Shown one piece after another: positions 10,648 through 50,427 of a stretch of DNA of 64,000 nt (its first letter is position 1; the number at the start of each line of letters is the position of its first letter). The position numbers were made by a program, and so were the translations under genes. This stretch comes from Sandaracinus amylolyticus (GTDB lineage: Bacteria; Myxococcota_A; Polyangia; Polyangiales; Sandaracinaceae), in assembly GCF_021631985.1 (NCBI RefSeq), contig NZ_CP070225.1, positions 6,510,001-6,574,000 of the forward strand, in the 5' to 3' direction. The notes under the pieces were generated by a model. It was given only the letters and a program-made list of their open reading frames with translations, was not told the DNA's origin and ran no database searches.

Positions 10648-10717
10648 CGCCGACGCGCCGTGCCAGCTCGATCGCTCGTGCGAGCGCGGACCGAGCGACC
10701 GGCGTAGGCACCCCACG

Positions 10718-29923: not shown

Positions 29924-30394
29924 TCACTCGTCGGAAGCGGTTGCTTCGGCGCGCGCGATCTGGAGCGCAGCGACTACTCGACGTACGCTCTCCTCGACGG
30001 ATTCGTGCTCCCAGACGCGAACCACTCGCCAGCCTGCGGCTACGAGGTCCGCGTCGACACGCGCATCGCGTGCCTGATTAGCGCCCAGCTTCGCGCGCCA
30101 CCAGTCCGCGTTGGTCTTCGGCCAGGTACCGTGCTCCGGGCAACCGTGCCAGAAGCATCCGTCGACGAAGATCGCGACGCGTTCGCGCGCAAAGAGCAGG
30201 TCTGCGCGACTGCGGACACTCGGAACGGGCGATCTGTCGACCCTGAAGCGATAGCCGGCGCGGTGAAGCGCGGAACGAAGCGCACGCTCGGGCCCAGTGT
30301 CACGGCGCGCGGTGTTCTCGAAACGACGGCGGATCGTGTCGTTCTTCGGCGTCGGGTTCCGGTTCTCCACCGGCGGGCGCGCGAGTTCCTTCAC
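29924..30394 (-). CDS. vsr: Very short patch repair endonuclease Vsr, 156 aa
   Basis: Family features are clear: TARRDTGPERALRSALHRAG at about 28-47, the catalytic-core strand RADLLFARERVAIFVDGCFW (Asp of RAD, then DGCFWHGCP), the downstream zinc/active-site segment CPEHGTWPKTNADWWRAKL, and RVVRVWEHE near the end. Vsr nicks next to T:G mismatches left by deamination of 5-methylcytosine, so it protects against mutation caused by a cytosine methylase, here the one encoded at 38522-39739. The GTG start overlaps the stop of the preceding motor gene (GTGA, 30391-30394), making this the last gene of the five-gene operon. Confidence 0.93.
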   Translation of the reverse strand: MKELARPPVENRNPTPKNDTIRRRFENTARRDTGPERALRSALHRAGYRFRVDRSPVPSVRSRADLLFARERVAIFVDGCFWHGCPEHGTWPKTNADWWRAKLGANQARDARVDADLVAAGWRVVRVWEHESVEESVRRVVAALQIARAEATASDE

Positions 30395-33300
30395 GGTGAC
30401 CGGACCTTAGCGCATTGCACACGCACGATCCGCTGTGCGTTCTTAAAGAAGGCATCGCCCTTGCCGGCGAGCGCCTCTGCACCAGCTTCGGCCATCACGA
30501 TGTTGCTCTCCACAGCCGAGCGGACGCGAAGCGCGAGTTGTGCGACGAGGTTCGACCGCACAACGGTACTGATGACATCCGCCGACGGTCGCTGCGTCGC
30601 GACGACGACGTGGATGCCGCTGGCCCGCGCCTTCGCGGAGAGCCTCTGCAGCGACTCTTCGATCCGCCGCTTATCGTTCTTGTCGGAGGTCAGATCCGCG
30701 TACTCATCGAGCACGACGACCCACCACGGAAGAACCTCGTCGGGCCGGTCCGCGACGCGCGCATTGTACTCCGGTAGCGAGCGTGTGCGCTGGGCGCGGA
30801 AAATGTCGCGACGGCGCTCCATCTCGGCGACCGCGCCTTCCAGGAGATCGATCGCGTCCTTCGGATCCCAGCCGATCGGCCGTAGCAGATGCGGAGAGTT
30901 CTCGAACGCGACCAGCTCGGTGGTCTTCGGATCGACGAGCCCGAGTCTCAGGCGCGACGGGTTACGGTGCCGCGTGAGACCGAGCAGGATGGTCTCGAGC
31001 GCAATCGACTTGCCAGCACCGGTCTGGCCGGCGATCAGCAGGTGCGGCGAAACATCGGACGAGAAATCGATCTCGACGACATCGCCCTTGATGTCTTCAC
31101 CGATGGGCGCATTCAGTCGCGAGTCGTCGAAAGTGCTCCTCTGCCAAAGCGTCTCCGCATCGACGAAGTAGCGCTCGTGATCGGGCTTGGGCACCTCGAA
31201 CACCACGCAGCCGCGATCGATGTAGCTCCGAGGAACGGCGTCGGCCTGGAGCTCAAGCTTGAGCTTCACCTCGTCGGCGTAGCCGCGCACCGTGTCGGGG
31301 CGAACGCCGGGGGCAGGCTGGACGCGGAACACGTAGAAGCCCGGACCCTCGCGATAGGCCTCGGCCGCGGGACGCGTGACGCCGATCCGGAACTCGCCAA
31401 AAACGTCGAGCACGCGCTGATAGCGAGACTCCAACTCCGCCGTCGACCGACCCCTAGTGCGCGGGGTCGATCGTATAGCATCGGGCGCGGGCGGGCTGGG
31501 CGCGTCACGAGATATGGCTGGCTCGACGGCTACGATCGGAGAAGACGCGGACGGCGACGCGCCGCCCTCGGGAACCGGGGGGGCCCCCGACGGCGTGCCA
31601 GTCGGCATGGCGGGGCCGGCCGTCGCCGGTGTAGATCCGCCAATCGCGCCAATGATGCGAGCGAGCTCTTCGCGACCGACGCGGTACCACAGATGGCCGC
31701 CAGGCGTACGCTGGATGGGGTCGGTCACAGACTCCGACGGGGAGGTGGTGCACACGATGCACGCGACCTCCTCGAAGTCATAGTCGCCGCGGATCCAATC
31801 CTCGCGAGCGAGGACCGGGACGACGCCGCCGGCATCGCTCCCGTCGGCACTCCAGCTGGAGATCGATCGCGTCGTTCTCTCGCCGCCCTTCGGAAGCTGC
31901 TCGATCGCCCCGAGGATCTCACGGCGCCAGAAGTCGAGGTCGACGATCCTGGGATCCGCCGTTCTCTGCGGCATGAGCGCGTGCTGGAGGAGCTCCCGCG
32001 TGTTCTTGACCTGATCGTCCGCGGTGGACACCGCCGCCTGGTCCCTGAATTTCGCCTCGACGACCAGGACCTGGAGTCGAATCCGTCCGTCGGGTCCCCG
32101 CAAAAACGCTATGCGCGCGAGGTCAGCTCGCGAGCGCCGACCTGCTCCGAACCAGTGCGAGTGTTCGTCGAGGCTCACCCACGCAAGAAAGCCCTCGGCG
32201 GCAAGCACCGGGATGCGCTCGTCGACGAGACGCCGGGCGATCGCCAGGCCCACCAGTTCCTGTACCGCCCAACCGAGTCCGAGTGCTCGCAGGAGGATGC
32301 CCGGTGCGAGGAAGCGCGAACTCTCGTAGAGCTTCTCCGCGACAGGACGGGCGCGCGGTCGGAGCTCGTGCGGTAGATCTGCCTCGAGGCGGTGCTGCAG
32401 CCGGTCGACCACGAACGCACGGCCACTCGAGGAGCTGACGATCAGTGTGTACGCCTGGCTCTTTCCGACGTCGGGCCGGACGGTGATCACATCCGGCTGG
32501 CGGGGCAGCGCTTCGATCTGATCGCGTCCGATGAACGCGTCGAGAGTGACAACCCACCGCGCGACGCGGTGCAGTTCATCGAAGAGCTGCCGACTCCGGT
32601 CGAAGCGCACCTGGAGCATGACGTAATCGATATCGGACCCGACCACGTTGTGACGAAACCCGCGCACCGAGAGCGTCGACCAGTGCTCGAGCACCGCATC
32701 GGGTCGACGCGGCAGCAATACTCGCGAGACGTTCTCAGCGCGGCCGGTGGCGGTGTTGTCGATGTGAGTCGGAGCGTCGAACCACGGGTCGAACCGGCTT
32801 CCGATGTCGTCACCGCCCTTGCGCGTCGTCTCCTGTGCACGGGTATGGCTCCCGAACAGGTTCGGCACGAGCGCGAGGTCCACGTTGTCTCCGAAATCGG
32901 CGAGCGACGGCACGACCGCGTGCCCATCGGGCCACACGTGGACAACAACATCGAGAAGGGGCGAGTTCGACTCGCTTCGCTGGTCGGGGTCGTCGAACTC
33001 GGCCAGCGATCGCTCGATCGCGGCCGCCTCCTCACGCGGCGCGTACACGTGCAGGTGCACCCGCTTCGGTGCGGTGTTCGTGCGGAAGGCCCGGCGCGCC
33101 AGCCGCCGGAGTACGCGCGCCCCTCCACTCCTCACGAGGAGGAGGATCGAGATCCCATCGGCCTTATGCGGGTGCGCGACGACGTACTCTTCCACCACCC
33201 GCGCCAGTTCGTCGATCGACGCATCGTCGAGCTCGCTCAGCCAGTCGTCATCCGCGCGATCGGGCCGACGCAGCGTCGCGTAGTGCTCGTGCCAAGACTC

Positions 33301-35415
33301 TTCGCGTACCGAGACGAAGAGCTTCTCGTCAGCCGTCAGGATGGGCGGTTGCTCGTGCGGGGACAGCTGCGCCAGCGACTCGAAGTAGAAACCGTCGTTG
33401 ATCGGATTGAGCACGACGCCGTCGTCGAGCAGGCGCTGCAACCGCTTGCCCGTCTCCCCCAGGTGGCAGGCCACCCACCGAGCGCGGAGCGGGTGCGTCG
33501 CGAGTAGCGTGACGCGGCCGCTTGCGTCGCGGAACGTGTCGCAAGTCAGGAACGAGGACAGCGCCTGCAAGGGCGCTCCGCTTGGAACGAGCACCGTGAG
33601 CGCTTGACCGAGTACTTGGTCGCGCCACTGATCGACATACTCCGAGAGTGCCTCCGCGGATATCCCGGTGTTGCGCAGCCGCTGCAGATGCTCGGCGCGT
33701 ATTCCGCGCCAGACCTCGAGAACGGGATCTCCGGCGAGGACCTCCTGACCGCCATCCAACAGCGGCGGCTCCGGGTCGTTCTCTGCGTCCGAAGGAGCCG
33801 AGAGGACTTCCAGGATGTGGCGGCACCAGGCCTCGAAAGACTCGTGACTGGAAATCCACGCCTCATGATCGCTCTCGACGATCGCGGCGAGCGCGATTAG
33901 GCCGGTCTGGTCGAGCGGGCGCCACTCGACTCGACGAAGGGGCGACGCCGCGCCTCGATGGAGGAGCTCGAGGACGAGCGGTGACCATCCGGCTTCGATC
34001 TCGCCGCTCTCCTCTCTCGAGGCGCGCAGGCGATCTGCATCGATGCGAACGAGCTCCGGATCGATGGCCAGTGAGACGCGCGCGCCCGGTCCACCGTGCA
34101 CCAGCCCCTCAAGGGTCCTTCCGAAAACAAACGCGAACAGGCGTGCGCTGCGCCGGTCGTCAGCGTTCTTCACGGCGACACGCCGGAGTACCAGCTCCAT
34201 CGTGCCAGCCGGCGAGTCCTGGACGGCCGCATGGATCTCTCGAAAGAGCCAGCCGAGTGGATCCTCGATGGATCCGCGTCGAGGCTCGGCGAGCCGTTCG
34301 ACTGCGCGTCGGAGCGGTCGCGGCAAGGCGTCGACGATGATTCTCTCCCCGTCATCAAGCAGTTTCTGTGCAGCCGACAGATCGCCCGCGTCCAGGCCCA
34401 CCGCTACGTCCAGCTGATCGAAGAGGTCCAGGTGCTCTGAATGGGTCTCGATGAGATGATCGCGGATCCTCTGCCCGAGGCCGCGATGCGGCGCACCTTC
34501 GGGGAACAGCTGCAGCCAGATTGACAGCTCCAGGTCCCGAACGACACGAGCAGTCGTCCGATACAGGAGCTCACGGATCCGCTTACGGATTTTCGTCAGA
34601 GCAGCTTTGTCGAGTGGCGAGCCGTCAGGGCCGACGAACAGCGTCTCTCCTGCCCGAGCGGCGAGCTCGTCGTGATCGATCGGCTTCCCTCGCGGGTCGA
34701 GTTCCTCCGTGCATGCGATATTCAACTCGATCCGCGGCGCGCGTTCTGCGTCGCGCCGGTTGTGCAACTCACTGTCGGCGAACAAACCAAGCACCGGCAA
34801 CGCAGCACCCACGGCACGACCGACGGCCGTCTCGTCCTGGGCTTGTCCCGAGCTGGCCAGCGGACGTACAGATGCGAGGACGAACTCTACCCAACGGCGC
34901 AGGGCGACATCGGACCGTCGTACGTAGATCTCCTCCGTGAACTGATGCAGTGCCTGGGGCAGGAGATCGTCGGTTCCACCAACCACTTCCCACGCCGCAC
35001 GAATCACGCGTCGGCGGGTCTCCTCGGCTGCGTCAGATCCGCGCAGCACCGACTGATCGTCGATACACGGAATTCGGCCGAGCCCCTGCGCGTCCGTGTA
35101 CGCCGCGTCCTCGAGCAGCACATAGCCAGAGAGCTCGCCTTTGAGCGTCTCGTTCCTCAAGGTCGTTGCGCTCTTGTCGGCGGGCAGAAGCAGTCCGGCG
35201 TCGAGACCAGGCCAGCCGTCGTGCGACCCGACAGCGACACAGATCGGCGGCGCGCTGCCGTCGTAGTCGAACCCCCGGAGCCGCCGCGCGATCTCCACGA
35301 TCTCGTCGTGTCCGAAGTCCTTGACGCGGAGCATGCCCCCACGGCCACCCGCCAGCAGTCGCGATTCCGCGAGCCAACCTACGACCGTCCCGATCACTTT
35401 CGCGGTTTCGTTCAC
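30391..35415 (-). CDS. Large FtsK/HerA-type DNA motor with nuclease-like motif (DptH-like), 1,674 aa
   Basis: The C-terminal ~330 residues are an FtsK/SpoIIIE-type motor: Walker A LIAGQTGAGKS near 1461-1470, DPKTTEL, Walker B WWVVVLDEYADL near 1568, then VVATQRPSADVI and a C-terminal SNIVMAEAGAEALAGKGDAF. Near residue 1120 the strand VLVVEAKFRD preceded by RADLARIAFLRG looks like a PD-(D/E)XK nuclease core (E-x-K). Pro/Ala-rich linkers join this to the motor (about 1255-1340). The first ~1,050 residues are not recognised. Length, order and motor placement match DptH of phosphorothioate-dependent restriction (DptFGH), but similarity outside the motor was judged only from architecture. GTG start overlaps the previous stop (GTGA). 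Predicted role: DNA translocation and cleavage of unmodified DNA. Confidence 0.8.
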   Translation of the reverse strand: MNETAKVIGTVVGWLAESRLLAGGRGGMLRVKDFGHDEIVEIARRLRGFDYDGSAPPICVAVGSHDGWPGLDAGLLLPADKSATTLRNETLKGELSGYVLLEDAAYTDAQGLGRIPCIDDQSVLRGSDAAEETRRRVIRAAWEVVGGTDDLLPQALHQFTEEIYVRRSDVALRRWVEFVLASVRPLASSGQAQDETAVGRAVGAALPVLGLFADSELHNRRDAERAPRIELNIACTEELDPRGKPIDHDELAARAGETLFVGPDGSPLDKAALTKIRKRIRELLYRTTARVVRDLELSIWLQLFPEGAPHRGLGQRIRDHLIETHSEHLDLFDQLDVAVGLDAGDLSAAQKLLDDGERIIVDALPRPLRRAVERLAEPRRGSIEDPLGWLFREIHAAVQDSPAGTMELVLRRVAVKNADDRRSARLFAFVFGRTLEGLVHGGPGARVSLAIDPELVRIDADRLRASREESGEIEAGWSPLVLELLHRGAASPLRRVEWRPLDQTGLIALAAIVESDHEAWISSHESFEAWCRHILEVLSAPSDAENDPEPPLLDGGQEVLAGDPVLEVWRGIRAEHLQRLRNTGISAEALSEYVDQWRDQVLGQALTVLVPSGAPLQALSSFLTCDTFRDASGRVTLLATHPLRARWVACHLGETGKRLQRLLDDGVVLNPINDGFYFESLAQLSPHEQPPILTADEKLFVSVREESWHEHYATLRRPDRADDDWLSELDDASIDELARVVEEYVVAHPHKADGISILLLVRSGGARVLRRLARRAFRTNTAPKRVHLHVYAPREEAAAIERSLAEFDDPDQRSESNSPLLDVVVHVWPDGHAVVPSLADFGDNVDLALVPNLFGSHTRAQETTRKGGDDIGSRFDPWFDAPTHIDNTATGRAENVSRVLLPRRPDAVLEHWSTLSVRGFRHNVVGSDIDYVMLQVRFDRSRQLFDELHRVARWVVTLDAFIGRDQIEALPRQPDVITVRPDVGKSQAYTLIVSSSSGRAFVVDRLQHRLEADLPHELRPRARPVAEKLYESSRFLAPGILLRALGLGWAVQELVGLAIARRLVDERIPVLAAEGFLAWVSLDEHSHWFGAGRRSRADLARIAFLRGPDGRIRLQVLVVEAKFRDQAAVSTADDQVKNTRELLQHALMPQRTADPRIVDLDFWRREILGAIEQLPKGGERTTRSISSWSADGSDAGGVVPVLAREDWIRGDYDFEEVACIVCTTSPSESVTDPIQRTPGGHLWYRVGREELARIIGAIGGSTPATAGPAMPTGTPSGAPPVPEGGASPSASSPIVAVEPAISRDAPSPPAPDAIRSTPRTRGRSTAELESRYQRVLDVFGEFRIGVTRPAAEAYREGPGFYVFRVQPAPGVRPDTVRGYADEVKLKLELQADAVPRSYIDRGCVVFEVPKPDHERYFVDAETLWQRSTFDDSRLNAPIGEDIKGDVVEIDFSSDVSPHLLIAGQTGAGKSIALETILLGLTRHRNPSRLRLGLVDPKTTELVAFENSPHLLRPIGWDPKDAIDLLEGAVAEMERRRDIFRAQRTRSLPEYNARVADRPDEVLPWWVVVLDEYADLTSDKNDKRRIEESLQRLSAKARASGIHVVVATQRPSADVISTVVRSNLVAQLALRVRSAVESNIVMAEAGAEALAGKGDAFFKNAQRIVRVQCAKVRSP

Positions 35416-36731
35416 AGCGCCCTCGTGCCCACCATGCGAGTCGCATCGGAGTACTCCCGGAGGAGCCCGAGCTCGCGCAGGGTGGTTGCTAGCCCGGCGG
35501 CGTTCTGGTCGAAGGCCCCGCGATCGACATCGCCGACGCGACCTGCGCGATCAGCGGTTCGGCCGTCGACGACGAACTGGAGACGCTCGAAGAGCACGTA
35601 CTCGACAAACGACTCAAGCGTCTGCTCACCGGGTACGAGCGCCAATACGATCGCTTCGAGCAGGGGAGGAGCCAATCTGAAGTGACGCTGGCCGACCATC
35701 GCGTTCAACGCACCGATAGCGCCGAGCGTCGTCGTGAAGAACGTGCGCGGGCCCTCACGCCAGGCCTGCGACTGCTGCAACAACAGCTCGTTCCCGTTCT
35801 TGCGCGCGAGGACTCCGAGCGATTCGTACACGACGCCGACCGCTGCCGCGAGATCCTCGCGCGAAAGCCGACGGATCGGGGTCGGACCAGGGCTCGTGTC
35901 GACTACGATGGTGCGAGCGTCTCGCGACTCAAGCACACGGTCGGCACAAGCCAGTTCGTGCATGGCGATGCAGAGGGGGACGAAGTGCATGAGGGCGTCG
36001 ATACGACGTGAACTCGTGAGCGACGTGCGGCGCACGATGCCGGCCACGCCATCGCGCAGGATCTCAGCCCATACCGTGTCGATCGCCTTCGTCTCCGCGG
36101 CGACGGAATCCTCGAACAGATCTGGCTGGCGCTTGTCGGCCGGCTCGGCGTCGAGCTTCGAAAACTCCCGCGCGAGTCGCGCCAACTGTGTGTCCGAGGG
36201 GGCGACGAGCGCTCTGAGCCCGTCGCGCACAGTCCCGAGCCGCACGGTGTCGTGATCGTCACGGAGCAGTCGATACGCGAGTGCGCCGCCGCCTCGATAA
36301 GTGTAGCGCTCGATCGACACCCGCCGCGTGCCGCGGCCTCTGAAAACCGCGTCGTAGTGCGCGAGCTCGCCGACATAGGGAAAGAAGTGTCGATTCCACC
36401 ACGCAGGTTCGGCACGCATTCCGGGGATCGGCACGGTCAGCCCGGCGAGGAGGGAGCGCAATGTCGACTCGGCGTCCGAACCAAGGTGGCTTCGCTGTTC
36501 CGCACTGAGCTCGGCGGGATCAGCGAGAAGGCGGCGCGCGAAATCGTGGCTCCGGCGCCGGTACCTGATGGGCTGACCCTTTTCCTCGGCGAGCAGCGGC
36601 AGATCGGCTTCGTGCATGCCGCGCAACATCGCAAAGAGCTCTAGGGAGACGTAGAATCCGCGGCCCTGCTGGTACAGTGCGCCGCCGAACGCTTCCTTGA
36701 CCGTCCGCTCGCCCGCTTCCTTCCGGTTCAC
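35412..36731 (-). CDS. Unknown operon protein in DptG position, 439 aa
   Basis: I recognise no catalytic motif. The protein is largely helical with scattered hydrophobic stretches (AWWNRHFFPYVGELAHYDAV near 107, LMHFVPLCIAMHELACADRV near 245, TTLGAIGALNAMVGQRHFRL near 340) and a C-terminal winged-helix-like end (LATTLRELGLLREYSDATRM). Size (439 aa) and position between an N-terminal-P-loop ATPase and an FtsK-like motor match DptG. It overlaps both neighbours by 4 nt (GTGA), which suggests fixed stoichiometry and a common complex. GTG start at 36731. Confidence 0.65.
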   Translation of the reverse strand: MNRKEAGERTVKEAFGGALYQQGRGFYVSLELFAMLRGMHEADLPLLAEEKGQPIRYRRRSHDFARRLLADPAELSAEQRSHLGSDAESTLRSLLAGLTVPIPGMRAEPAWWNRHFFPYVGELAHYDAVFRGRGTRRVSIERYTYRGGGALAYRLLRDDHDTVRLGTVRDGLRALVAPSDTQLARLAREFSKLDAEPADKRQPDLFEDSVAAETKAIDTVWAEILRDGVAGIVRRTSLTSSRRIDALMHFVPLCIAMHELACADRVLESRDARTIVVDTSPGPTPIRRLSREDLAAAVGVVYESLGVLARKNGNELLLQQSQAWREGPRTFFTTTLGAIGALNAMVGQRHFRLAPPLLEAIVLALVPGEQTLESFVEYVLFERLQFVVDGRTADRAGRVGDVDRGAFDQNAAGLATTLRELGLLREYSDATRMVGTRAL

Positions 36732-38515
36732 GGATCCCCCACCACGAACACGTCGTTGTCAATCTCGATGAGCCGCAGGCGATCGCCGTCCATCACCTGG
36801 ATTCCCGTCGTGTCGGAACGGGCCGTTCCGGCGATCGCAGCGAGCCGCGCGAGGATACGGCGTGACTCCGCAGCATAGAAGCGTCGCGCGACGACCCCAC
36901 CGGCCGCGCGCGCGACGAGTTCGAACTGCAGCAGATCGAGCTCCAAACGGGTTGCTTCGTCTCCGAACTGGATCGCCACACGCCGTGGCGTCCAGTCGAC
37001 CGCCTTCGGCAGCTCGCTGTCACTCCAGCACGCCTCAAGCGGAACGAGCCGGACAGCGGACCGCTGGAACCGTCTCGCGATGATGGGTGCGCGTCCCTCG
37101 GCGCGGGCGAACGCAGGATCGGCGATGTTGAAGTGAAGCCCGGGCGCAGGTCGGAGTCCCTGAAGTACGTGCAGCCCGTCGAGCAGTCGGTTACGGATGT
37201 CCTTCGTGTCAGTTCGATCAGCAAACACTGCGACGAACTCGGCGTAGTGTCGGAGCCCGATGCGTAGCGCACGCTCGCCGGCATCGCGGACGGGATCACT
37301 CGTGTATCGTTCGCTCGCCGCACCATCGAAGAAGTCGAGGCGGCGGCGACGCCGAACTCGCACGCGGTATCGCTCTGCGAAATTCCGCGCGTCGCGGACC
37401 GTGCGCGGGGGTGTCTCGGAACGGCTCGTCTCCTGCTGCACGTCTTCTCGATCGAGAACCCGCACTAGGGCTTCGTCGATCGACGGGAGCGCATAGATGC
37501 CGGGATCGAGGCGACGGATCCGCTCGAGCACGGGAAGCTGTCGCTTCTCGATCGCACTCAACTGCCGCTCATAGAGCGCCCAAACGAAATCTCTATGTCC
37601 CCAATGCCGTAGTCCCGAACGTCCATCCTCTCGGGCCACTGCCACGCAGTCCATCATCCCGGTCGTCACATACGCGATGAACATCAATGTCTCGCGGATG
37701 GTCAGGACGTAGCCGGACTGCTCCAACGTTCGGAGGATCTGCTCAAGGGCATCTCGGCGTCGACGCGGGAGCACGTCTCGCGGGTCGGCGCCACCGAGAG
37801 CGGCCTGGTTCGCTGCAATCGGGCACCTCGACGCCGCGTCGCAGGTCTTGCACGCAGCCCAACGACGGCGGTCAGCCACCCAGTCGCGGAGCAGGTGCGC
37901 GACGAACGAGTTCGTCGGAGCCGTTACGCTCTGCCAGTTGAGGTTGATGACGTGGACATCGGGTCGAATCGACGTGGTGCCCTCGGAGATGCTTCGTTCA
38001 AGCGTCTCAAGCACGATCTCCAGCTCGGGGTGTCCGCCCTGCGAGATCGCATCGCGGAGCCGTCCTTCGTTCGCGCAGACGATGGCAACGCTCCCGCGAT
38101 CTGCGAGGAGCTCTGCCATCCGATCGGCGCCGCGCGACGCCGGTTCGATCTCGCTGAGGTCGCGCAGGATGCGGAGAGGCCGAAGCGGTGACCGGCCGGC
38201 GTTCGGGTTGATCCGAACACTCCCCTCGGCGTCTGCCTTGATCAGTGCGAGAGCTGCGGCTCCGTCGTAGCCATAACTCTCCTGGACCACGCGCCGGCAG
38301 AGGTGCGTCTTGCCGTGTCCGGCGTCACCCGTCAGCACGATCAACGATGTGTCAGAGCTGTCCACGAGGCGGCGAACATAGCCCAGGGCCATCGTCGGGA
38401 TTGCCGGGCGGCCTTCCCCGGGATCGATGCTCTCCTCGTATAATTCGCCAGAGTTGGTCGCGAACGGGAGGTGGCGCGCAAGGCGCTGGACGTGCGGGTT
38501 CACCTGATATGCCAT
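36728..38515 (-). CDS. P-loop ATPase of the restriction operon (DptF-like), 595 aa
   Basis: P-loop near residue 62-70: LIVLTGDAGHGKTHLCRR, preceded by YVRRLVDSSD. A second conserved strand SVAIVCANEGRLRDAISQGG (about 136-155) fits the acidic/sensor element of DptF-like NTPases. A Cys cluster, CKTCDAASRCPIAANQ near 222-237 (C-x2-C-x5-C), suggests a small zinc site. The C-terminal third is unassigned and ends in a beta-rich stretch (GIQVMDGDRLRLIEIDNDV). It begins 6 nt after the methylase stop with TGAGGACCG before ATG 38515. Likely an ATP-driven regulator of the nuclease complex; the DptF assignment rests on size, motif layout and gene order. Confidence 0.7.
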   Translation of the reverse strand: MAYQVNPHVQRLARHLPFATNSGELYEESIDPGEGRPAIPTMALGYVRRLVDSSDTSLIVLTGDAGHGKTHLCRRVVQESYGYDGAAALALIKADAEGSVRINPNAGRSPLRPLRILRDLSEIEPASRGADRMAELLADRGSVAIVCANEGRLRDAISQGGHPELEIVLETLERSISEGTTSIRPDVHVINLNWQSVTAPTNSFVAHLLRDWVADRRRWAACKTCDAASRCPIAANQAALGGADPRDVLPRRRRDALEQILRTLEQSGYVLTIRETLMFIAYVTTGMMDCVAVAREDGRSGLRHWGHRDFVWALYERQLSAIEKRQLPVLERIRRLDPGIYALPSIDEALVRVLDREDVQQETSRSETPPRTVRDARNFAERYRVRVRRRRRLDFFDGAASERYTSDPVRDAGERALRIGLRHYAEFVAVFADRTDTKDIRNRLLDGLHVLQGLRPAPGLHFNIADPAFARAEGRAPIIARRFQRSAVRLVPLEACWSDSELPKAVDWTPRRVAIQFGDEATRLELDLLQFELVARAAGGVVARRFYAAESRRILARLAAIAGTARSDTTGIQVMDGDRLRLIEIDNDVFVVGDP

Positions 38516-38521
38516 CGGTCC

Positions 38522-39739
38522 TCACACTGCGAGGCGCGATGCACTTTCGGCATCACGCGGAGCCGATGCCGCGCGGGCGATTCGCGGGCACCCGTGATCC
38601 GTGCAGTACTGCGCGAGTGCCACGCGGAACTCGGTTGGACCGACGGACAGTGTCGATCGCTGAAGACGGTCGAGGAACCCAGCAGCAGCTCCGACTGACA
38701 GCGGCGTCGCGGACTGCAGGAACCCTCGGAGCGGCTTTCGAAGCTCGCTCACGGGCCAGGTGGTCACATCGACGGCAACGGGCTCGATGCCGGGCCCGCC
38801 GCGCGCCGCGATCGGCCACTTGCCTCGCTGGAACGGCCGCTGCGGGCGCGATTCGTACAACGCCCGGTTCTTCAGGCCTTTGCCGATCCACTCCGCGACC
38901 GGGACGGCGACCGCATTCCCCACGAGCCGCCAGCGTCGGCGGTCGCCGCGAACGTCGTCGACCGCCCCGCGCGTCCAGCCGGGCTCGAATCCCTGCAGTC
39001 GTTCAGCGTCTTCGATGCCCGGGACGACGAACGCTCGAGCTGGCGCGCGTTGGGGAAGCCACACAGCGGGCGCAGACGGAATGCCGATACCCGACCCGCC
39101 CTTCAGCGTCGGAACCGCTTCGCGTGCCCACCCGACGCCGCGGTTGCCCTCGGTCCAGTAGAAGCCGTAGCCGAACGCCGCGCGATCGAACTCCCGGTCC
39201 GCAGGCCACGTCGGCTCTTCGTCGCTCGCGAACAAGACGCAGCTGGGATCGCGCTCACGGCTCGCCACCACGAAAACGCGCTGGCGCCGCTGCGGTAGCC
39301 CGAACGCGCGCGTGTCGACGACGCGGTAGGCCCACGAGTAGCCGAGCCGCTCTAGACGCCGCGTGATGTGCCGGATCCCATGTCCCCCGTGGAGCCGCAG
39401 GATATTCGGGACGTTCTCAAGGACTACCCACGGAACGCGCGGGCCGTGCTCGATGAGTTCGAACACCACATCGATCAAGCCGGACTGTTCGCCACGAATC
39501 CCGGCCGTGCGACCTGCCTGGCTGAGATCGGTGCACGGAAAGCCCGCCGCCACGATCTCCGTCCCCCGAGGCAGCCGTCGTAGCCGTCTGATGTCGCCGA
39601 CGACCGGGGAACCGAACTCGCGGTCGAGGATCGTCTTCGCCTGCTCGTCCAGCTCGGAGAGCAAGATCGTCTCGTGCCCGGCGTTCTCGAGACCGACCTC
39701 GAACCCGCCGATGCCGGCGAACAGCCCCACGACCCTCAT
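38522..39739 (-). CDS. DNA (cytosine-5) methyltransferase, Dcm/HaeIII-like, 405 aa
   Basis: Motif I VVGLFAGIGGFEVGLENAG at residues 3-21, motif IV with the catalytic Cys GFPCTDLSQAG (Cys about 71), motif VI VVLENVPN, motif VIII QRRQRVFVVASR, and motifs IX/X RLQGFEPGWT and RLVGNAVAVPVAEWIGKGL. This is the full C5-methylase set. The C-terminal ~90 residues after motif X are extra and unassigned. It would methylate cytosine at C5 in a target that the sequence does not reveal. ATG 39739 is preceded by AGGAGG at ideal spacing; an upstream in-frame extension is low-complexity. First gene of the operon that ends with vsr. Confidence 0.95.
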   Translation of the reverse strand: MRVVGLFAGIGGFEVGLENAGHETILLSELDEQAKTILDREFGSPVVGDIRRLRRLPRGTEIVAAGFPCTDLSQAGRTAGIRGEQSGLIDVVFELIEHGPRVPWVVLENVPNILRLHGGHGIRHITRRLERLGYSWAYRVVDTRAFGLPQRRQRVFVVASRERDPSCVLFASDEEPTWPADREFDRAAFGYGFYWTEGNRGVGWAREAVPTLKGGSGIGIPSAPAVWLPQRAPARAFVVPGIEDAERLQGFEPGWTRGAVDDVRGDRRRWRLVGNAVAVPVAEWIGKGLKNRALYESRPQRPFQRGKWPIAARGGPGIEPVAVDVTTWPVSELRKPLRGFLQSATPLSVGAAAGFLDRLQRSTLSVGPTEFRVALAQYCTDHGCPRIARAASAPRDAESASRLAV

Positions 39740-39986
39740 GGTGCCCTCCTCATCGCGCGCGAGGCTACTACAACTGGACGAGGCGGGCCGACGGGAACTG
39801 ACCGCGGGACGCAGGTGTTCGCCGGCGGCTTCGCCCGCCGGGCGGGAACCGACTGGCAAGCGCGTCGGAACGTTGTCCGACGTAGCTCATCAAGCGCGCG
39901 CGGTTGCAGTTGCGCGCAGGTTGCCGCGCATGCGGCGGCCTCCCTCGCGAGCGTCGAGCAGTGCTACCGATCGCCGCCGACCGAAC

Positions 39987-41462: not shown

Positions 41463-41487
41463 CCTGCGCGCCTACCGGACGCGCAGG
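41463..41487 (-). terminator. Hairpin across the E1 stop codon
   Basis: CCTGCGCG (41463-41470) and CGCGCAGG (41480-41487) form an 8-bp GC stem with a 9-nt loop that contains the stop of the E1 gene. No U-tract follows, so termination strength is doubtful. Confidence 0.3.
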
Positions 41488-42827
41488 TACCCAGGGTTGA
41501 GGCTGGAGAAATCGCGGGGCTGCGCGACGACGAGGCGGTGCTCGACGCTCTGGAGATCGAGATCGACGAGCCCATCGAGCGGGGCGCCGTGGAGCAGCCG
41601 CAGCACCTGCGAGATCACGAGCGTCGCGGCGACGGCGCCGACGAACGGCGCGCCGACCGCCTTGCCCGCGAGCAGCGTGACGCCGCAGCGGTCGAGCGCG
41701 CCGTCCGCGAGCAGACGCTGGTAGGCGGGGCGGGTGGTCACGTCCTCTCCTGTCGGCGCGATCGTCCACATCTCCGCGCTGCGGCGCGATGCGGGCAGAG
41801 AGTGCAGCCGCATCGTGCGGAAGTCGCGGTGACCGCGGCCGAGGCCGGCCTCGACGACCAGCGAGAACCCGGCGTCGTCGAGTGCCTGGCGGCCGATCGC
41901 GTTGTCGATGCCGCACAGGGCGATCGCGGGCTCCGCCGATTGACGTCGGAAGTTGGTGTCGAAGGCCCGCTCGTAGATCGCGGTCCGGAACCCGCGGCGC
42001 TCCGCCCAGGCCGTCATCGCGCGCGTCTTCCGCGTCCCGACCATCGACGCGTCGGTCAGGATCGACGTGCTCTCGGTCGACCGGGAGATGACGTCGGTGT
42101 CCTGGAGCACGAGCTCGAGACCGCCATCCGCCGGCACCGGCAGCACCCCCAACGCCCAGAGGTACGCCTGGCCGAGGTGGCCGAGGCCGAGGATCCACAG
42201 GCGCGAGGGCACCAGCTCGAGCTCGGGCGCGCCGTCGGGCGCGAGCCAGTCGCTGGTCAGGTCCCACAGCGATAGGCCGACGCGTCGCCGGCCAGCCGCA
42301 GCGTTGCGGTCGGCGACGCGTGCGAACGCCTCGTTGACGGCAAGCGCCGCGCTGAGCATCGGCGCGAGCGCCATCACCGGCCGCTCGGGGATGGGCGCCG
42401 CGTCCGCCGGCAAGACGCCACCGCGCCAGCCGGCGAACGCAGTTCGGACGTGGAACTCCGCCGCTGGCGGCAGCGGCTTGTCGTCGATCGCGATCGTGGG
42501 GCGCTCGTCGTGCGGCCCGATCAGCGGTGCGCCTCCGAGCGCGACCACCGCGTCGGCGAGCGTTGCACCGAGCGGTAGCGGCGCCATCAGCGGCACGCCC
42601 AGCGGGCCCGCGATCTGGACACCACCGTGGAACACCCGGCGACCGAGGGCGACGGCGGTGAGCAGCGCGATCTGGTGAGGCAGCTGGCGCGCCTCGTCCG
42701 CGCCGATCGTCACGGCCAAGCGGTAGCCGCGGAACCGCGCCTCCGCCTCCGCCACCGTCGCCGCGGCTCCGCTGTCGAGCGCCTGCTTCACCAGCCGGTG
42801 AAGATCCTGTTCATCGACCTTGCTCAT
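41472..42827 (-). CDS. bilD: E1-like (ThiF-family) ubiquitin-activating protein, BilD-like, 451 aa
   Basis: An N-terminal region of about 200 residues precedes a ThiF/E1 adenylation domain. The nucleotide-binding motif is LWILGLGHLGQAYLWALG near 210-227, the substrate-acid region LVLQDTDVISRSTESTSIL follows, and the crossover segment contains DRCGVTLLAGKAVGAPFVGA with the candidate catalytic Cys near 378. It would adenylate the C-terminal Gly of the ubiquitin-like protein and carry it as a thioester before transfer to the E2. Last gene of the operon, 8 nt after the JAB gene. Order Ubl-E2-JAB-E1 and sizes match Bil (bacterial ISG15-like) antiphage operons. Confidence 0.85.
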   Translation of the reverse strand: MSKVDEQDLHRLVKQALDSGAAATVAEAEARFRGYRLAVTIGADEARQLPHQIALLTAVALGRRVFHGGVQIAGPLGVPLMAPLPLGATLADAVVALGGAPLIGPHDERPTIAIDDKPLPPAAEFHVRTAFAGWRGGVLPADAAPIPERPVMALAPMLSAALAVNEAFARVADRNAAAGRRRVGLSLWDLTSDWLAPDGAPELELVPSRLWILGLGHLGQAYLWALGVLPVPADGGLELVLQDTDVISRSTESTSILTDASMVGTRKTRAMTAWAERRGFRTAIYERAFDTNFRRQSAEPAIALCGIDNAIGRQALDDAGFSLVVEAGLGRGHRDFRTMRLHSLPASRRSAEMWTIAPTGEDVTTRPAYQRLLADGALDRCGVTLLAGKAVGAPFVGAVAATLVISQVLRLLHGAPLDGLVDLDLQSVEHRLVVAQPRDFSSLNPGYLRVR

Positions 42828-42835
42828 GCCGAACC

Positions 42836-43315
42836 TCAGAGTCCGATGCGGAAGTGCCGCGACGGCACCGTCGCCCAGCGCTTCGCGCCGAGGTACCGGT
42901 AGATCCCGACGTCGCGGACACGGACCGGCGGTAGCGCGAACCGCGGCACGATGAGCGCCAGGTGCCCTGCGCAGGCGATCATGGGGTGCGCGCGATCGGA
43001 TCCGCTCTGCCGCGCGCCGCCGGGGTGGGTGTGGACGTCGGCGACGACGGCGAGGCCGGTCGCCTTGCAGAGGTCCCACAGCCGGCCGAAGTAGCGGCCG
43101 TCGAAGTGGACGATGCCAGTGTCTAGGCAATGCGGGTCAAGGTCGTCGTAGAGGACGAACATCGAGATCCGCGCGCGTCCATCGTCGCGGTGGCCGAGGA
43201 GGAACGCGCCGCTCTCGTGCATGCCGCCGCCGCGAGCGCGCAGTCCGGCGAGCAGGCGCCACCAGAGGAACCACGAGCACGAGAGCTCGTGATCAGCGCT
43301 GAGCAGGCGGCGCAT
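42836..43315 (-). CDS. bilC: JAB/JAMM metallopeptidase, BilC-like deubiquitinase, 159 aa
   Basis: JAMM motif is complete: Glu in HESGAFLLG near residue 32, then [18 protein letters not shown] (H-x-H near 93-95, Ser and Asp about 8-11 residues on). Such enzymes cut after the terminal Gly of ubiquitin-like proteins, either to mature the precursor or to remove it from targets. The candidate substrate, encoded two genes upstream, ends in a Gly-Gly followed by three extra residues. ATG 43315 is chosen; it lies inside the end of the E2 gene (23-nt overlap). An ATG at 43339 is the alternative. Confidence 0.87.
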
Positions 43316-43757
43316 AGTCCCGAGAGTTGAGAAGCTCATGGACGAGCTCCAGGTACTGGGCGATCCCGTCGGCGGGCCGCCAGATCTTCGAAGGCATCTG
43401 GGTGCGCCAGTGGTCGTGTCCCTGGATGGACTCGCGATCGCACGGCAGGTACAACGCCGAGCCGCCCTTCCAATCGGTGCGGAACACCGCACCGACGCGG
43501 CCGCCGTGGCTCTTCGGAAAGAGGTGGTGCGCGAGCGGGCCGTTGCGGTCGACATCCCAGAGGCCGGCGGTCGGCGGCGCCGCGGGGAACCCGGACAGCT
43601 CGAAGCGCAGCGTGAACATCCGGTCGTCCCTGGCCCTCACCGCGATGAGCGCGCGCGGCCAGGTGATCGTCGACAAGTGCCACCGGCCCTCGACCTCCGC
43701 GAGCTTGAACGCGGGCCGGGCGACGTCGGCGCGGAACGCTCGCTCGTCGGGCAGCAT
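43293..43757 (-). CDS. bilB: E2-like ubiquitin-conjugating protein, BilB-like, 154 aa
   Basis: Short protein with the E2-like order of elements: [20 protein letters not shown] (N-terminal helix and first strand), [20 protein letters not shown] (the P-rich loop typical of E2 folds), [18 protein letters not shown] near 80-97, and the candidate catalytic Cys in [20 protein letters not shown] near 105. It would accept the ubiquitin-like protein from the E1. The assignment rests on this layout and on lying between Ubl and JAB genes, because prokaryotic E2s are divergent. Its ATG shares one base with the stop of the Ubl gene (TGATG). Confidence 0.78.
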
Positions 43758-44257
43758 CAGATTGCCGAGCCGCCGTTGACGCGCTCGTCGGGCACCAGGT
43801 CGAAGGCGACGCGACACGCGGGGCACTTCGCGAGCGTCCCGATGTGCGTCGACGGCGTCGGCCGGTCGTGGGTGCCGGAGATCTGAAGGACGTGCTCGCC
43901 GGCGTCCTCCTTGGACATACCGAGCTGCTGCGCCGCCCAGCGCTTGACCCGCGCCACGGTCGCGCCCGGCCCGAACTTGTGCTCGATCATTCGCCCGGCG
44001 AACGCGACGGTGACGCAGACGCGGCGGCAGCGGTGCAGGTGCACCTTGACTCCGGCTGGCGTCGCGATCGCGCCGACCGTCTTGGTCTCGTCGACGTCGC
44101 CGTCGTCGTCCTCGGCGAAGAGCGAGGCATCGTCACTGATGCCGTGCTTGGCCGTGATCCGCGCCTTCAGCGCGCCGAGCGTCTCGTCAGGGGGGGCCGA
44201 GATGTGCTGGATCTCGGGGACGCCCTCGACCTGGTAGAAGATGTCGATGTCGTTCAT
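43757..44257 (-). CDS. bilA: Tandem ubiquitin-like protein, BilA-like, 166 aa
   Basis: Two beta-grasp units in a row. Unit 1, about 1-78: [20 protein letters not shown], then [14 protein letters not shown] and a closing strand VKVHLHR. Unit 2, about 80-155: [20 protein letters not shown], then [20 protein letters not shown], then [13 protein letters not shown] pair near 144-147 may bind a metal. The C-terminus is VNGGSAI, i.e. Gly-Gly plus three residues that the neighbouring JAB peptidase could remove. Two ubiquitin folds in one chain is the ISG15-like arrangement of BilA. ATG 44257 has GAGG upstream. A 28-nt element identical in its core to the one before the sigma gene lies 55 nt upstream. 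Confidence 0.85.
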
Positions 44258-44312
44258 GTCGTGCCTCGGTGTTGGTCGCCAGCCGCGTGCTGGTTCGTCC
44301 CTCACCAAGGCA

Positions 44313-44340
44313 ATCGCCATGACGACGCCAACCCGGAAAC
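44313..44340 (-). promoter_or_regulatory. Bipartite promoter-like element upstream of the ubiquitin-like gene
   Basis: Minus strand reads GTTTCCGGGTTGG, nine other bases, then GGCGAT, ending 55 nt before ATG 44257. Exactly the same two blocks with the same 9-nt spacer occur at 49151-49178 upstream of the sigma-factor gene. This looks like a -35/-10 pair for an alternative sigma factor, plausibly the one encoded in this locus. It gives the conjugation genes their own promoter apart from the helicase transcript. Confidence 0.65.
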
Positions 44341-44358
44341 GCGCGGATCGTTTTTTCT

Positions 44359-47300
44359 TCAGCCCACCGACAGCTTGCCGGGCGGCACGGTCGGACAGAT
44401 GAAGAAGTGCGGGCACTGCGGGCAGCTGTACGCGTCGGACGCGGGCGGGAGGTCGCCGGCGCGGATCGCGGCAAGCGCGGCGGTCGAATCAGTCGCCGCC
44501 CTGTCGATCGTCTTCGCGGGTAGCTCGATCGGCTGCCGCTTGTCGTCGGTCAGGTGGACGGCCTCGACGACGTAGCTTGGCCCGCCCCGCGCGCGTCCGG
44601 CGAGGTGATAGAGCTGGTAGTCGAGCTGCTGCTTCTCGCTCGTGCGCTGGTATCCGGTTCGGACCCGTCGGAGCACGAGGCCGCCGTCGGGGCGCCGCGC
44701 CAGCTCATCCGGCTCGACGATCAGCCGCTCACCATCGAGGTCGACCGCGATCGCCTCCGGTGAGTCGAAGCGTAGATCGTCGGCGGAGGTGCACAGCGCC
44801 CGAATCAAGCGCACGGCGAGTGCGCGGTAGTCGGCCTCGAACGCGTGACCGACGGGGCCGCGCTCGGGCCACACCCGGTCGAGTTCCCGCAACGCCTCAG
44901 ACTCGCCGACCGCGGGATCGACGCGCGCGGACGCATACCAGCGGACGATCTCGTAGATGCAGTCCTCGGTGCGGCTGTACGCCGTCGGTACCCGCTTCGT
45001 CCCGACCTCGAGGACGTGCGAGTAGAAGAACCGACGAGGACAGCGGTGGTACGAGCGCAGCTTGGAGTCGGAGACGCTCCAGTCGTCGCTCCAGGCGATC
45101 TCCAGTCTCGTCGAGGTTGCGTCCGAGGCCGCCGCTGACTCCGCGATCGACAGGTCCTCGGCGATGCTTTCGAGCCAGGGAAGAAACCGCGACTGGTTGC
45201 GCTTGTTGCCGTTCGCCTGCTTGCGCGCGGCGTAGAGCCTCAGGTGGGTACGCGCGCGGGAGGCCGCGACGAAGAACAGGCACTCCTCCTCCTCGTCCGC
45301 CTGCGCGGGCGTCGCGCCTTCGATCAAGCCCGGCGGCGGCGGGCACGGCGACGTCCGGTTCCTGGCGGGGAAGCTGTCGACCGTCATGCCCGGGATGTGG
45401 ACCGCCTCGAACTCGAGACCTTTGCTGGCGTGGACCGTCATCAGCCGGACGGCGTCGATGTGCAAGGCTGCGTCGGGCACCTGCCGAAGATCGCGCTCCT
45501 CCGCGAGCAGCACCATCTGCCGCACGCGCGTGAGGGCTCGCCAGATCGGTGGGCCGTGCGACGCCGGGATGCCCTGGCGCAGGAAGTTGAGCAGCTGCCA
45601 GATCGCGATCGCCCTCATGCGATCGGCCGGCGCCGAGCTCACGGCGAGTTCAACGAGCATGCGCGTCCGATCGAGCAGGTAAGTCGTGAGGACCTGCCAC
45701 GGCTTGTCGCTCGTCCCGAACCCGTCGAGATCCGACGCGACTCTGGCGAGGGCGGCGCGGCCAGGCTCCGACAGCGACGCCTTCGCTGCGGCGGCGGCGA
45801 GGCGCGGCGCGACTGGCTCCGGCGCCTCGCGCAACCAGTGCAGCGTCGCGCGCAGGTCCTCGATCGAGAGACGGTACCGCGACATAGCGCCGACCCGAAC
45901 CAGCCCATCGCCCATGCGATCCGTCACGAGCGTGAGGAGGCTGAGGAGATCGCGGACCTCGGGTCGCTCGAAGATGCTGCCGAGATAGAGGACCGGGATT
46001 CCGGCCGCCTCGAGCGTCGCCGAGACCTCATTGAGCCGGCGGTTCGTACGACACAGCACCGCCTGATCGCGCAGCCGGATCCCCTGCGCCTCAAGCTCGC
46101 GCACGCTCGCGACGATCCCGGCAAGCTCGTCCGTCGGTGTTTCGTACCGCCGGATCTGCGGCTGCACCCCCTGTGGGCCGCGCACGGCGTCGAACGCGAG
46201 CTCGAGCATGCCTTGCGACGCCCCCATGTTCCGGGCGACAGCCATCAGCGTTTTCACGAGCTCGTCGGACGAGCGGTAGTTGATTCCGAGCTGGTCTGTT
46301 TTCGCGCTCGGGTAGTCGCTGGAGAACCGGGACATGTTCGCCGACGATGCGCCCCGGAACCGGTAGATCGACTGCCGAGAGTCCCCGACGACCCACAGCG
46401 CCTGTCCGGAGCCCGCCACCATCCGCAGGAGCAGCGCGCTCGCGCGGTTCATGTCTTGGTACTCGTCGACGAGCACGTGTCGATGTCGCTGCGCCACCGC
46501 GGCTGCGATCGCGGGTTCGCTCTCGAGAAGCAGGGCCGGCCGCATCACCAGGTCGGCGAAGTCCAGCGCGCCGTGTTTCGCGAGCGTCCGCTGGTAGAGC
46601 TCGTAGACGCGTGCGACCTCGAGTGCCTTCTCGCCGGCTTCGCGCGCGTCGTCGTCGGTCGCGGTGTCGACCATCAGCTGCGCCAGCTCGCGGTATCGCT
46701 CCGGGCCGGCGAGTTCGTCCTTGGCCCGCGAGATCGCGCCGAGCATCTCCCGCAGCTCGCGTGCGGGATTCCAGAGGTCGCGGTAGTGGCTCAGGCCGAG
46801 GATCGGCAGTAGCTCCTCCAGCAAACGGATCCCATCGCTGCGATCGAACAGCACCGGGTTCTGCGGCAAGCCGAGCCGGTCGTGATAACGGCGCACGAGA
46901 TCCAGGCCGAACGCGTGAAACGTGCCGATCCACAGGAGCGCCGACGCATCGCCCGCCTGCGCTGCGACCCGGTCGGCGACCTCCCCGGCGGCGCGGTTTG
47001 AGAAGGTGAGGATCGTGATCGTGGCGGGATCGACGCCCTCGGTGAGCAGGCCGAGCACGCGATTGACGAGTGTCCGGGTCTTTCCAGTCCCCGGGCCGGC
47101 CTGCAGCAGAAACGGCGATCCGCGGTGTGCCGCGGCGCGATCTTGCGACGTGTCTTCGCGCCGCGGACTCACCTTTTTCGGCGCCTCAGCGGCGACGGCC
47201 GGGAGAAGCAGCGCATCGAGCAACTGCTGACGGACGAGGTCGACCGGGAGGTCGAGCTTTTCCGCGATCGTGAACGCCGAGAGACCCCCGTCGATATGCA

Positions 47301-47745
47301 GACGCCGGGCGTGCGCTCGCGGCAGGAGCAGCTCACGGGCGAACACGTTGGCTTGCAATTCGCGGCGTTCGCGGCCGCCGTAGTCCTCGACGCGCTGCAG
47401 GCCGATCGGAGCCGCTTCCGTCGACAGCGAGGCGTCGATGTCGGAGGGTGCGCAGGCCGTCGTGCTCGCGTGCACCCGGACGTGCCCGATCTCGTGCGCG
47501 ACGCGCATCGCGCGACCGGAGTCGTCTGCGTCCGTCGCGCAGAGGATCAGGCCGCTCTGCTGATCGAAGCAAGCGCGCGCGCCCTTGAGCTGCGGTTCGT
47601 CGGGATCGACCCACACGACTTCCAGCTCGAGGTGTCGGGCCGCGGCCTCGACGACATCCATCGATCGTGTGGCGTCACAACTCGCTTCGCGCAGCTCCGC
47701 GCGAAGCGCCACCGCAGCCGCCCGTATGGTCTCGAAGGCGTCCAT
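44359..47745 (-). CDS. ImmA/IrrE metallopeptidase fused to UvrD-type helicase with degenerate AddB-like nuclease, 1,128 aa
   Basis: Residues 1-190 are an M78 (ImmA/IrrE) peptidase: HExxH in RVAHEIGHVRVH near 85-89 and the downstream ligand block ERRELQANVFARELLLP near 130. Residues about 205-870 are a superfamily 1 helicase: Walker A LQAGPGTGKTRTLVNRV near 216, TFSNRAAGEV, motif II VLVDEYQDMN near 428, QSIYRFRGA, and LFFVAASRARTHLRLY near 825. The C-terminus has the PDDEXK_1/AddB layout: SKLRSYHRCPRRFFYSHVL near 895-913 and CPQCPHFFICP near 1110, four cysteines able to hold a 4Fe-4S cluster. The nuclease active site expected as D-Y-K-T-G reads RVRTG, so cleavage by it is doubtful. Start shares one base with the upstream stop (TGATG). 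Likely couples sensing of DNA damage or invasion to proteolysis (inference). Confidence 0.88.
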   Translation of the reverse strand: MDAFETIRAAAVALRAELREASCDATRSMDVVEAAARHLELEVVWVDPDEPQLKGARACFDQQSGLILCATDADDSGRAMRVAHEIGHVRVHASTTACAPSDIDASLSTEAAPIGLQRVEDYGGRERRELQANVFARELLLPRAHARRLHIDGGLSAFTIAEKLDLPVDLVRQQLLDALLLPAVAAEAPKKVSPRREDTSQDRAAAHRGSPFLLQAGPGTGKTRTLVNRVLGLLTEGVDPATITILTFSNRAAGEVADRVAAQAGDASALLWIGTFHAFGLDLVRRYHDRLGLPQNPVLFDRSDGIRLLEELLPILGLSHYRDLWNPARELREMLGAISRAKDELAGPERYRELAQLMVDTATDDDAREAGEKALEVARVYELYQRTLAKHGALDFADLVMRPALLLESEPAIAAAVAQRHRHVLVDEYQDMNRASALLLRMVAGSGQALWVVGDSRQSIYRFRGASSANMSRFSSDYPSAKTDQLGINYRSSDELVKTLMAVARNMGASQGMLELAFDAVRGPQGVQPQIRRYETPTDELAGIVASVRELEAQGIRLRDQAVLCRTNRRLNEVSATLEAAGIPVLYLGSIFERPEVRDLLSLLTLVTDRMGDGLVRVGAMSRYRLSIEDLRATLHWLREAPEPVAPRLAAAAAKASLSEPGRAALARVASDLDGFGTSDKPWQVLTTYLLDRTRMLVELAVSSAPADRMRAIAIWQLLNFLRQGIPASHGPPIWRALTRVRQMVLLAEERDLRQVPDAALHIDAVRLMTVHASKGLEFEAVHIPGMTVDSFPARNRTSPCPPPPGLIEGATPAQADEEEECLFFVAASRARTHLRLYAARKQANGNKRNQSRFLPWLESIAEDLSIAESAAASDATSTRLEIAWSDDWSVSDSKLRSYHRCPRRFFYSHVLEVGTKRVPTAYSRTEDCIYEIVRWYASARVDPAVGESEALRELDRVWPERGPVGHAFEADYRALAVRLIRALCTSADDLRFDSPEAIAVDLDGERLIVEPDELARRPDGGLVLRRVRTGYQRTSEKQQLDYQLYHLAGRARGGPSYVVEAVHLTDDKRQPIELPAKTIDRAATDSTAALAAIRAGDLPPASDAYSCPQCPHFFICPTVPPGKLSVG

Positions 47746-48368
47746 CAGAGCGACAGAAGGTGGCGTTGCTGCTCTTCGGTGAGCTTCGAGCTCTTCACTG
47801 CGTCCGCGAACGACTGCCGGCGCGACGCCTCCGGCTTCTGCTCCGACAGGAAGCGCATCTGATCGGGGATCGTGGCCTGGCCTGCCAGGTACGCCGCGAT
47901 CACCGGCTCGGAGACCTTCATCGCGTCGGCCATCTTCACGCGGAACGCATGCGGGATCGTCTCGGGCTCGATAGTCCGGTCGCGGACCTTGCTCAGAAAG
48001 AAGGCGTTCACGCCGAGCTCGGAGGCGAGCGCGCGGAACTGACCTGGGCTGAATGGCGCGAACAGATCCGGGCCCGACCCGTCGCGCGCCGGCTGCTCCT
48101 GCTTCACCTCGTACAGCCGGTTGTGCAGCTGGCTCAGCGCCCTCGAAATCGCGGGGCTCGTTCCGGTCGTAGAAGGTTCGATTCCGTCGTCGACATCCGC
48201 GGCGATTGCCATGGCGGCGAGCTCGGCGGCGAAGTCAGTGATCTCCTCCGCGTACTGCGGGTACCGGCGAAGGTACTCGCCGACGACCTTGGCGTCGGGT
48301 TTCTCGCTGGTCAACGCCATCTCGTGCAGCACGTCATCCAGCGAAACATCGTGCTTCGTTTTCGTCAT
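47745..48368 (-). CDS. Operon regulator candidate (possible anti-sigma / ImmA substrate), 207 aa
   Basis: No family recognised with confidence. The N-terminal part has EYLRRYPQYAEEITDFAAEL (about 29-48), the middle PGQFRALASELGVNAFFLSK and FRVKMADAMKVSEPVIAAYL (about 105-165), which have the helix spacing of an XRE-like DNA- or protein-binding unit, and the C-terminus DAVKSSKLTEEQQRHLL is polar. It lies between a sigma factor and an ImmA/IrrE-type peptidase and overlaps both (ATGA and TGATG). In ImmR/ImmA and DdrO/IrrE pairs the adjacent peptidase cuts the repressor, so this protein is the natural candidate for a cleavable anti-sigma or repressor. That role is inference. Confidence 0.6.
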   Translation of the reverse strand: MTKTKHDVSLDDVLHEMALTSEKPDAKVVGEYLRRYPQYAEEITDFAAELAAMAIAADVDDGIEPSTTGTSPAISRALSQLHNRLYEVKQEQPARDGSGPDLFAPFSPGQFRALASELGVNAFFLSKVRDRTIEPETIPHAFRVKMADAMKVSEPVIAAYLAGQATIPDQMRFLSEQKPEASRRQSFADAVKSSKLTEEQQRHLLSL

Positions 48369-49120: not shown

Positions 49121-49150
49121 GGAACCTCCGGGGTGTCTCCATCTTCGTTG

Positions 49151-49178
49151 ATCGCCGCGGCGCGCCCAACCCGGAAAC
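49151..49178 (-). promoter_or_regulatory. Bipartite promoter-like element upstream of the sigma gene
   Basis: Minus strand GTTTCCGGGTTGG-N9-GGCGAT, ending 30 nt before GTG 49120. The two blocks and their spacing are repeated exactly at 44313-44340. The N9 spacers differ (GCGCGCCGC here, CGTCGTCAT there), as expected for conserved -35 and -10 elements with a free spacer. Confidence 0.65.
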
Positions 49179-49390
49179 AGAAAGAGCAGCAACCGACGAG
49201 GATGGCGGCCTTCGAGACATAGGGCGCCATGATTGACTGTAACCCAGCACACAGGGATGGCCGTCGTTCGACGGTTCGCTCACGCTGGTGCCGCACCTGC
49301 GAGCTCGAGGATCGGCACGCCGGACTCGCCGAGCTCGTGCGCAATCGCGGCGGCGAACTCCTCGCGCGCGGCGGGATCGCCGTCGCGTGA

Positions 49391-49924: not shown

Positions 49925-49927
49925 TCC

Positions 49928-50305: not shown

Positions 50306-50427
50306 CGCGTTCGGTCCTTCCCGAGCGCGATGCGCAGCTGGCGCAGGCGCGCCGACGCTTTCCCGGGCCTGACCTATTGAGCCCTTCTCTCGCGCGCGGG
50401 GCGCTACGCTCCGCGCTCGAGATCACG

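Follow-up and report, generated by a model that had tools for sequence, protein, structure and literature searches.

We analyzed a 64,000 nt stretch of Sandaracinus amylolyticus DNA (hereafter the window), whose minus strand carries, at positions 29924-39739, five genes in the order M-F-G-H-V. They encode a DNA cytosine-5 (C5) methyltransferase (M), a trio of proteins homologous to SspF, SspG and SspH (F, G and H) and the very-short-patch endonuclease Vsr (V). Judging from sequence comparison, the operon is probably a restriction-modification system built on an SspFGH-type effector, in which 5-methylcytosine (5mC) would be the self-mark, F-G-H would cut unmarked DNA and Vsr would repair deaminated marks. 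The first-pass annotation had proposed 5mC-coupled restriction with Vsr and had labeled the trio DptF/G/H-like. The linkage of these genes is conserved across many phyla and no Ssp sulfur genes occur at the loci, but the DptFGH identity did not hold, and we infer, rather than observe, that F-G-H reads 5mC.

The coordinates and sizes of the five open reading frames, all on the minus strand, agree with that annotation. M (38522..39739, 405 aa) is preceded by AGGAGGG (39744..39750), read from the sequence as the ribosome-binding site ahead of the ATG at 39739. It matches Pfam PF00145 (DNA_methylase, 3e-41) and PADLOC MTase_II (5.8e-119), and the C5-methylase motifs reported earlier are all in place: I, IV, VI and VIII read FAGIGG, GFPCT, ENV and QRRQR. 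The next three genes match PADLOC models of the Ssp effectors: F (36728..38515, 595 aa) is an SspF-like P-loop ATPase (3.4e-36), G (35412..36731, 439 aa) an SspG-like helical protein (1.8e-18) and H (30391..35415, 1674 aa) an SspH-like nuclease-motor protein (1.7e-92; mad8, 1.2e-23). V (29924..30394, 156 aa) follows as the fifth gene. Since M and F are separated by only 6 nt and the pairs F/G, G/H and H/V each overlap by 4 nt, the five genes almost certainly form a single translation-coupled operon.

To identify the trio, we carried out the profile comparison suggested in the first-pass annotation, aligning F, G and H by hhalign with proteins of Ssp, MADS (methylation-associated defense system; Maestri et al., 2024, as cited in PMC12904381) and Dnd operons. 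The Ssp references were L012, L080 and L082, which carry SspC (L012 also has SspD by family search), and L081, found by tblastn with SspC and SspD; the MADS references were L014 and L083-L085, and the Dnd profiles were built on two operons only (L117 and L118). The window proteins aligned over nearly their full length with SspF (100%, 515 columns), SspG (99.5%, 414 columns) and SspH (100%, 1572 columns), in the same gene order, and also with Mad6 (99.9%), Mad7 (95.7%, C-terminal 90 columns only) and Mad8 (99.7%). With the two Dnd operons, the probabilities were 0.2% for DndG and 2.5% for DndH, and the 95% for DndF covered the ATPase part only; the NCBIfam DptF/G/H models had no match among the window proteins at E values up to 1. 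These sequence comparisons show that F-G-H and SspFGH are full-length homologues, the homology with Mad6-7-8 being less complete.

A genuine DptF-DptG-DptH (DndFGH) trio lacking its sulfur genes was thus rejected by both family and profile searches and deserves hardly any credence. The resemblance behind that label is real in protein size and gene order, and in the C-terminal half of H, which, like DndH, runs from a methyltransferase (inactive in DndH, probably so in H) through a nuclease to an FtsK/HerA motor (PMC10853773). Judging from the domain models, SspH-type and DndH proteins may therefore share an old architecture despite the absent sequence match. Wang et al., 2021 reported that SspFGH and DndFGH are not homologous in sequence (PMC8092258), with which our hhalign result agrees; the DptFGH label is therefore unsupported, although the functional analogy is supported.

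F carries the Walker A motif GDAGHGKT (38306..38329, minus strand), which at least 92% of 49 homologues retain, and a CxxC...C cluster (C222, C225 and C231) that is conserved in the same 49 sequences. G has no Pfam family match; its AlphaFold2 model is mostly helical (pLDDT 90.5) and found no PDB match at E≤0.001, the best VIA Z score being 2.9, in a search that may miss relatives, and we do not claim a novel fold. In H, residues 722-998 (32422..33252, minus strand) have an S-adenosylmethionine-dependent methyltransferase (Rossmann) fold, the best 50 VIA-align matches (Z 12.4-14.2) being almost all methyltransferases. Its motifs I and IV are eroded, with no conserved GxG or NPPY at these positions among the homologues listed, and the domain is therefore probably inactive. 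Residues 1040-1175 (31891..32298, minus strand) form a PD-(D/E)xK nuclease domain, in which E1053, D1098, E1120-x-K1122 and Q1135 are invariant among 17 diverse homologues and the succession of helices and strands in the AlphaFold2 model (mean pLDDT 81) fits this fold; the E-A-K motif suspected on first inspection is thus a true PD-(D/E)xK site. An FtsK alpha domain (residues 1317-1409; 31189..31467, minus strand; PF17854, 3.8e-05) and an FtsK/HerA translocase motor (residues 1430-1611; 30583..31128, minus strand; PF01580, FtsK_SpoIIIE, 3.4e-37) complete the protein.

The solved enzymes nearest to M, M.HhaI and M.HaeIII, align over the catalytic half only, and for this reason we do not predict its target site. 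V belongs to the Vsr family, scoring 122 bits against TIGR00632 (1.4e-35), above the cut-off of 97.85. It can be aligned with V.EcoDcm (1cw0), and GCFWH and other core residues of Vsr are kept in 33 homologues. Enzymes of both families also occur together in the pairs Dcm-Vsr and ScmA-VsrA (PMC12907096); in the window, by contrast, they share an operon with a motor-nuclease trio.

We then used F as the query against 84,980 species. This yielded 51 related loci, 47 of them with F-G-H, in at least six phyla (Pseudomonadota, Actinomycetota, Myxococcota, Planctomycetota, Verrucomicrobiota and Thermodesulfobacteriota). Of the 37 loci mapped with full flanks, 35 have a C5-methyltransferase and 26 have Vsr. 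The orientation of both genes varies, so their linkage to the trio is not merely that of one inherited operon, and the recurrence of the five-gene set in dozens of genomes exceeds chance. The order M-F-G-H-V is identical in a second Myxococcota genome and in L086, where the F-G-H proteins (5915-16099) are deeply diverged. The FtsK part of the L086 trio resembles the DndH and mad8 models, which suggests that its motor has been exchanged. In a tree of F, the C5-type loci form one clade (SH-aLRT 100) apart from the F proteins of Ssp (99) and MADS, as seen with a quick method and long branches. With positive controls, SspB, SspC and SspD had no match in the window or in 52 related loci, the remainder of this genome lying beyond the search.

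The C5 type is rare: in phylum samples it was found, L086 aside, in only one additional genome among about 397 Pseudomonadota and in none among about 395 Actinomycetota. F had no match in the genomes drawn from the same genus (one) and family (three), which suggests that the operon was gained horizontally. Some relatives depart from the common plan. In L018 (9194-11782), F is extended at its N-terminus by about 270 aa, for which PADLOC gave no match. In L013 (2161-18383), another relative of FGH, F is part of a 1352-aa fusion and the proteins encoded downstream weakly resemble SspB and SspC; this locus may represent yet another type of coupling. In L021, an AspBHI-type restriction endonuclease (18220-19380), a kind usually dependent on 5mC, lies between H and the M-V pair, an odd position beside a C5-methylase. 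L034 and L035, from Streptomyces carminius, represent an FGH-M locus on two contigs, identical in both F and M.

At the genome level, a C5-methylase is present in 48 of 50 genomes with F-G-H, and the two exceptions hold truncated loci (L064 and L065). Vsr occurs in 45 of the 50, compared with 48/198 and 49/200 in phylum samples of unmatched genome size. L048 and L049, both from Nocardia, lack a local M and are instructive: each genome has exactly one PF00145 gene, which is of the window M type (53% identical) and stands beside Vsr amid ABC-transporter genes. This arrangement is consistent with a C5-methylase serving F-G-H in trans.

Several observations weigh against coupling of the trio to 5mC. 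C5-methylases were also found in 10 of 14 control genomes, so that genomic presence alone is weak proof. Vsr is missing near F-G-H in about one-third of the loci. Window-type M and Vsr occur together on plasmids on which the C5-type G had no match and H only FtsK-like or partial matches; by sequence, M and V are therefore a mobile pair with partners other than F-G-H, and for the same reason the Nocardia match could be a coincidence. Furthermore, unrelated C5-methylases have been swapped while H remains 83-91% identical. Between Streptomyces and Actinomadura, for example, H is 91% identical and the adjacent M proteins, from different branches, are 30% identical; one strain (L043) has both M types. 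Either the M families share one target site, or what F-G-H senses is not a fixed motif. The recognition regions of the M families are weakly similar, in an alignment that ends in PSxTIT, common to many C5-methylases, motif IX not being cleanly trimmed.

With these reservations, we infer self-marking, reading and cutting as follows, on the basis of the gene identities and their conservation, which are observed. M would place 5mC at a specific site of the host chromosome. F-G-H would assemble on DNA and inspect such sites, perhaps by way of G and the probably inactive methyltransferase domain in H. Where the mark is absent, F and the FtsK motor would move the DNA and the PD-(D/E)xK domain would cut or nick it, so that incoming phages and plasmids, being unmarked, would be damaged. 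The cutting step is proposed by analogy: in experiments, SspFGH damages DNA that does not carry its mark, and it is toxic when that mark is absent (PMC8092258). Vsr would repair the T:G mismatches arising from deamination of 5mC, which, if unrepaired, would erase marked sites or raise the mutation load.

The plasmid-borne M and Vsr speak for another reading, in which the two halves of the operon work separately. M and V might be an independent, self-stabilizing methylase-repair pair comparable to ScmA/VsrA, with F-G-H a stand-alone defense system that ignores 5mC and merely shares the island. In Caulobacter, loss of the solitary C5-methylase ScmA leads to VsrA-dependent DNA damage (PMC12907096), and DndFGH, which is unrelated, has been argued to act on its own (PMC10853773). 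We nevertheless regard this explanation as unlikely, given the C5-methylase beside the trio in nearly all complete loci, drawn from several unrelated families and in varied orientations, the translational coupling of the window operon and the modification modules that adjoin FGH relatives elsewhere. Still less probable is a trio that, like a type IV system, depends on modification and attacks wrongly modified DNA, M being its antagonist or regulator. The enzyme in L021 belongs to a family acting on 5mC, and modification-dependent enzymes therefore do share such islands; however, a host whose own methylase made the mark under attack would kill itself unless the sites differ, and SspFGH, the closest tested relative, attacks unmodified DNA (PMC8092258).

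The reading of the operon as 5mC-coupled restriction leaves some latitude for Vsr. Repair of deaminated 5mC is its most likely role, and it might in addition act as an addiction nuclease, because VsrA damages DNA in Caulobacter once the methylase is lost. A stronger version, in which V, instead of repairing, nicks unmethylated or mismatched sites, either as a component of the restriction effector or as an addiction nuclease, seems rather doubtful to us. That damage by VsrA fits it, as do the translational coupling of V to H in the window and the Vsr-type nuclease domains that serve as C-terminal effector domains in ARMADA (PMC12458937), but the trio is intact in the loci without Vsr, about one-third of the total, and neither of its relatives, SspFGH and MADS, is defined by a Vsr gene.

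The operon can be placed among known systems by its marking module. In SspABCD-SspFGH (PMC8092258), the same three effectors stand in the same order, namely the F ATPase, G, and H with PD-(D/E)xK and FtsK domains, but marking is by SspA/B/C/D rather than by a C5-methyltransferase accompanied by Vsr, and the C5-type F is a clade of its own. MADS (mad1-mad8) is likewise coupled to methylation, and F, G and H have homologues in the C-terminal part of Mad6, the C-terminus of Mad7 and Mad8, respectively. It differs in its Mad2-type, type I-like methylase with the Mad5 specificity subunit and in the fusion of Mad6 to kinase-like domains (seen in L014), whereas the window has a single C5-methylase, an unfused 595-aa F, no specificity subunit and Vsr. 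DndFGH offers a functional analogy and the same domain series in H, with G and H lacking a detectable sequence relation and F related in its ATPase part only. The CxC/DndE systems with cytosine methylases (PMC10853773) are a precedent for cytosine methylation replacing phosphorothioation, but they are based on an ABC-ATPase and DndE, not on SspFGH; the text describing them mentions neither Vsr nor SspF/G/H.

The separate parts are already known, and the coupling of SspFGH-like proteins to methylation has a precedent in MADS. Our literature search gave no account of a C5-methylase combined with SspFGH and Vsr, nor any pairing Vsr with SspH, or Vsr with FtsK and a cytosine methyltransferase, and both are weak negatives since many subscription journals lay outside its coverage. 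The partners of FGH-type engines now comprise phosphorothioation (Ssp), type I-like methylation (MADS) and several unrelated C5-methylases, which suggests that one DNA-destroying effector family can be coupled to chemically different self-marks. As a tentative extension, F-G-H might be a general engine for destroying unmarked DNA with a separable mark reader, the eroded methyltransferase of H inspecting sites while the methylase is exchanged and the engine kept. How one kind of motor-nuclease tells self when the mark is backbone sulfur or a base methyl is a testable question, and operons of this type, with a single methylase that has been swapped in nature, offer a simple setting for studying self/non-self discrimination. 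The operon also suggests that Vsr helps to preserve the self-marks.

Some other genes of the window, likewise on the minus strand, were noted as well. A Bil (ISG15-like ubiquitination) defense system is located beside it at 41472-44416, with BilD (PADLOC, 3.2e-164), BilC (7.6e-66), BilB (6.1e-57) and a small ubiquitin-like protein (43757-44416) that is the probable BilA. Two overlapping genes follow at 44359-50501; the 1128-aa product has IrrE-like peptidase, UvrD helicase and PD-(D/E)xK domains and its 918-aa partner has no family match. They may be a pair of the AddAB kind to which a protease domain has been added, and are a candidate defense module. A 2362-aa protein encoded at 55315-62403 contains teneurin-type YD-shell/RHS domains.

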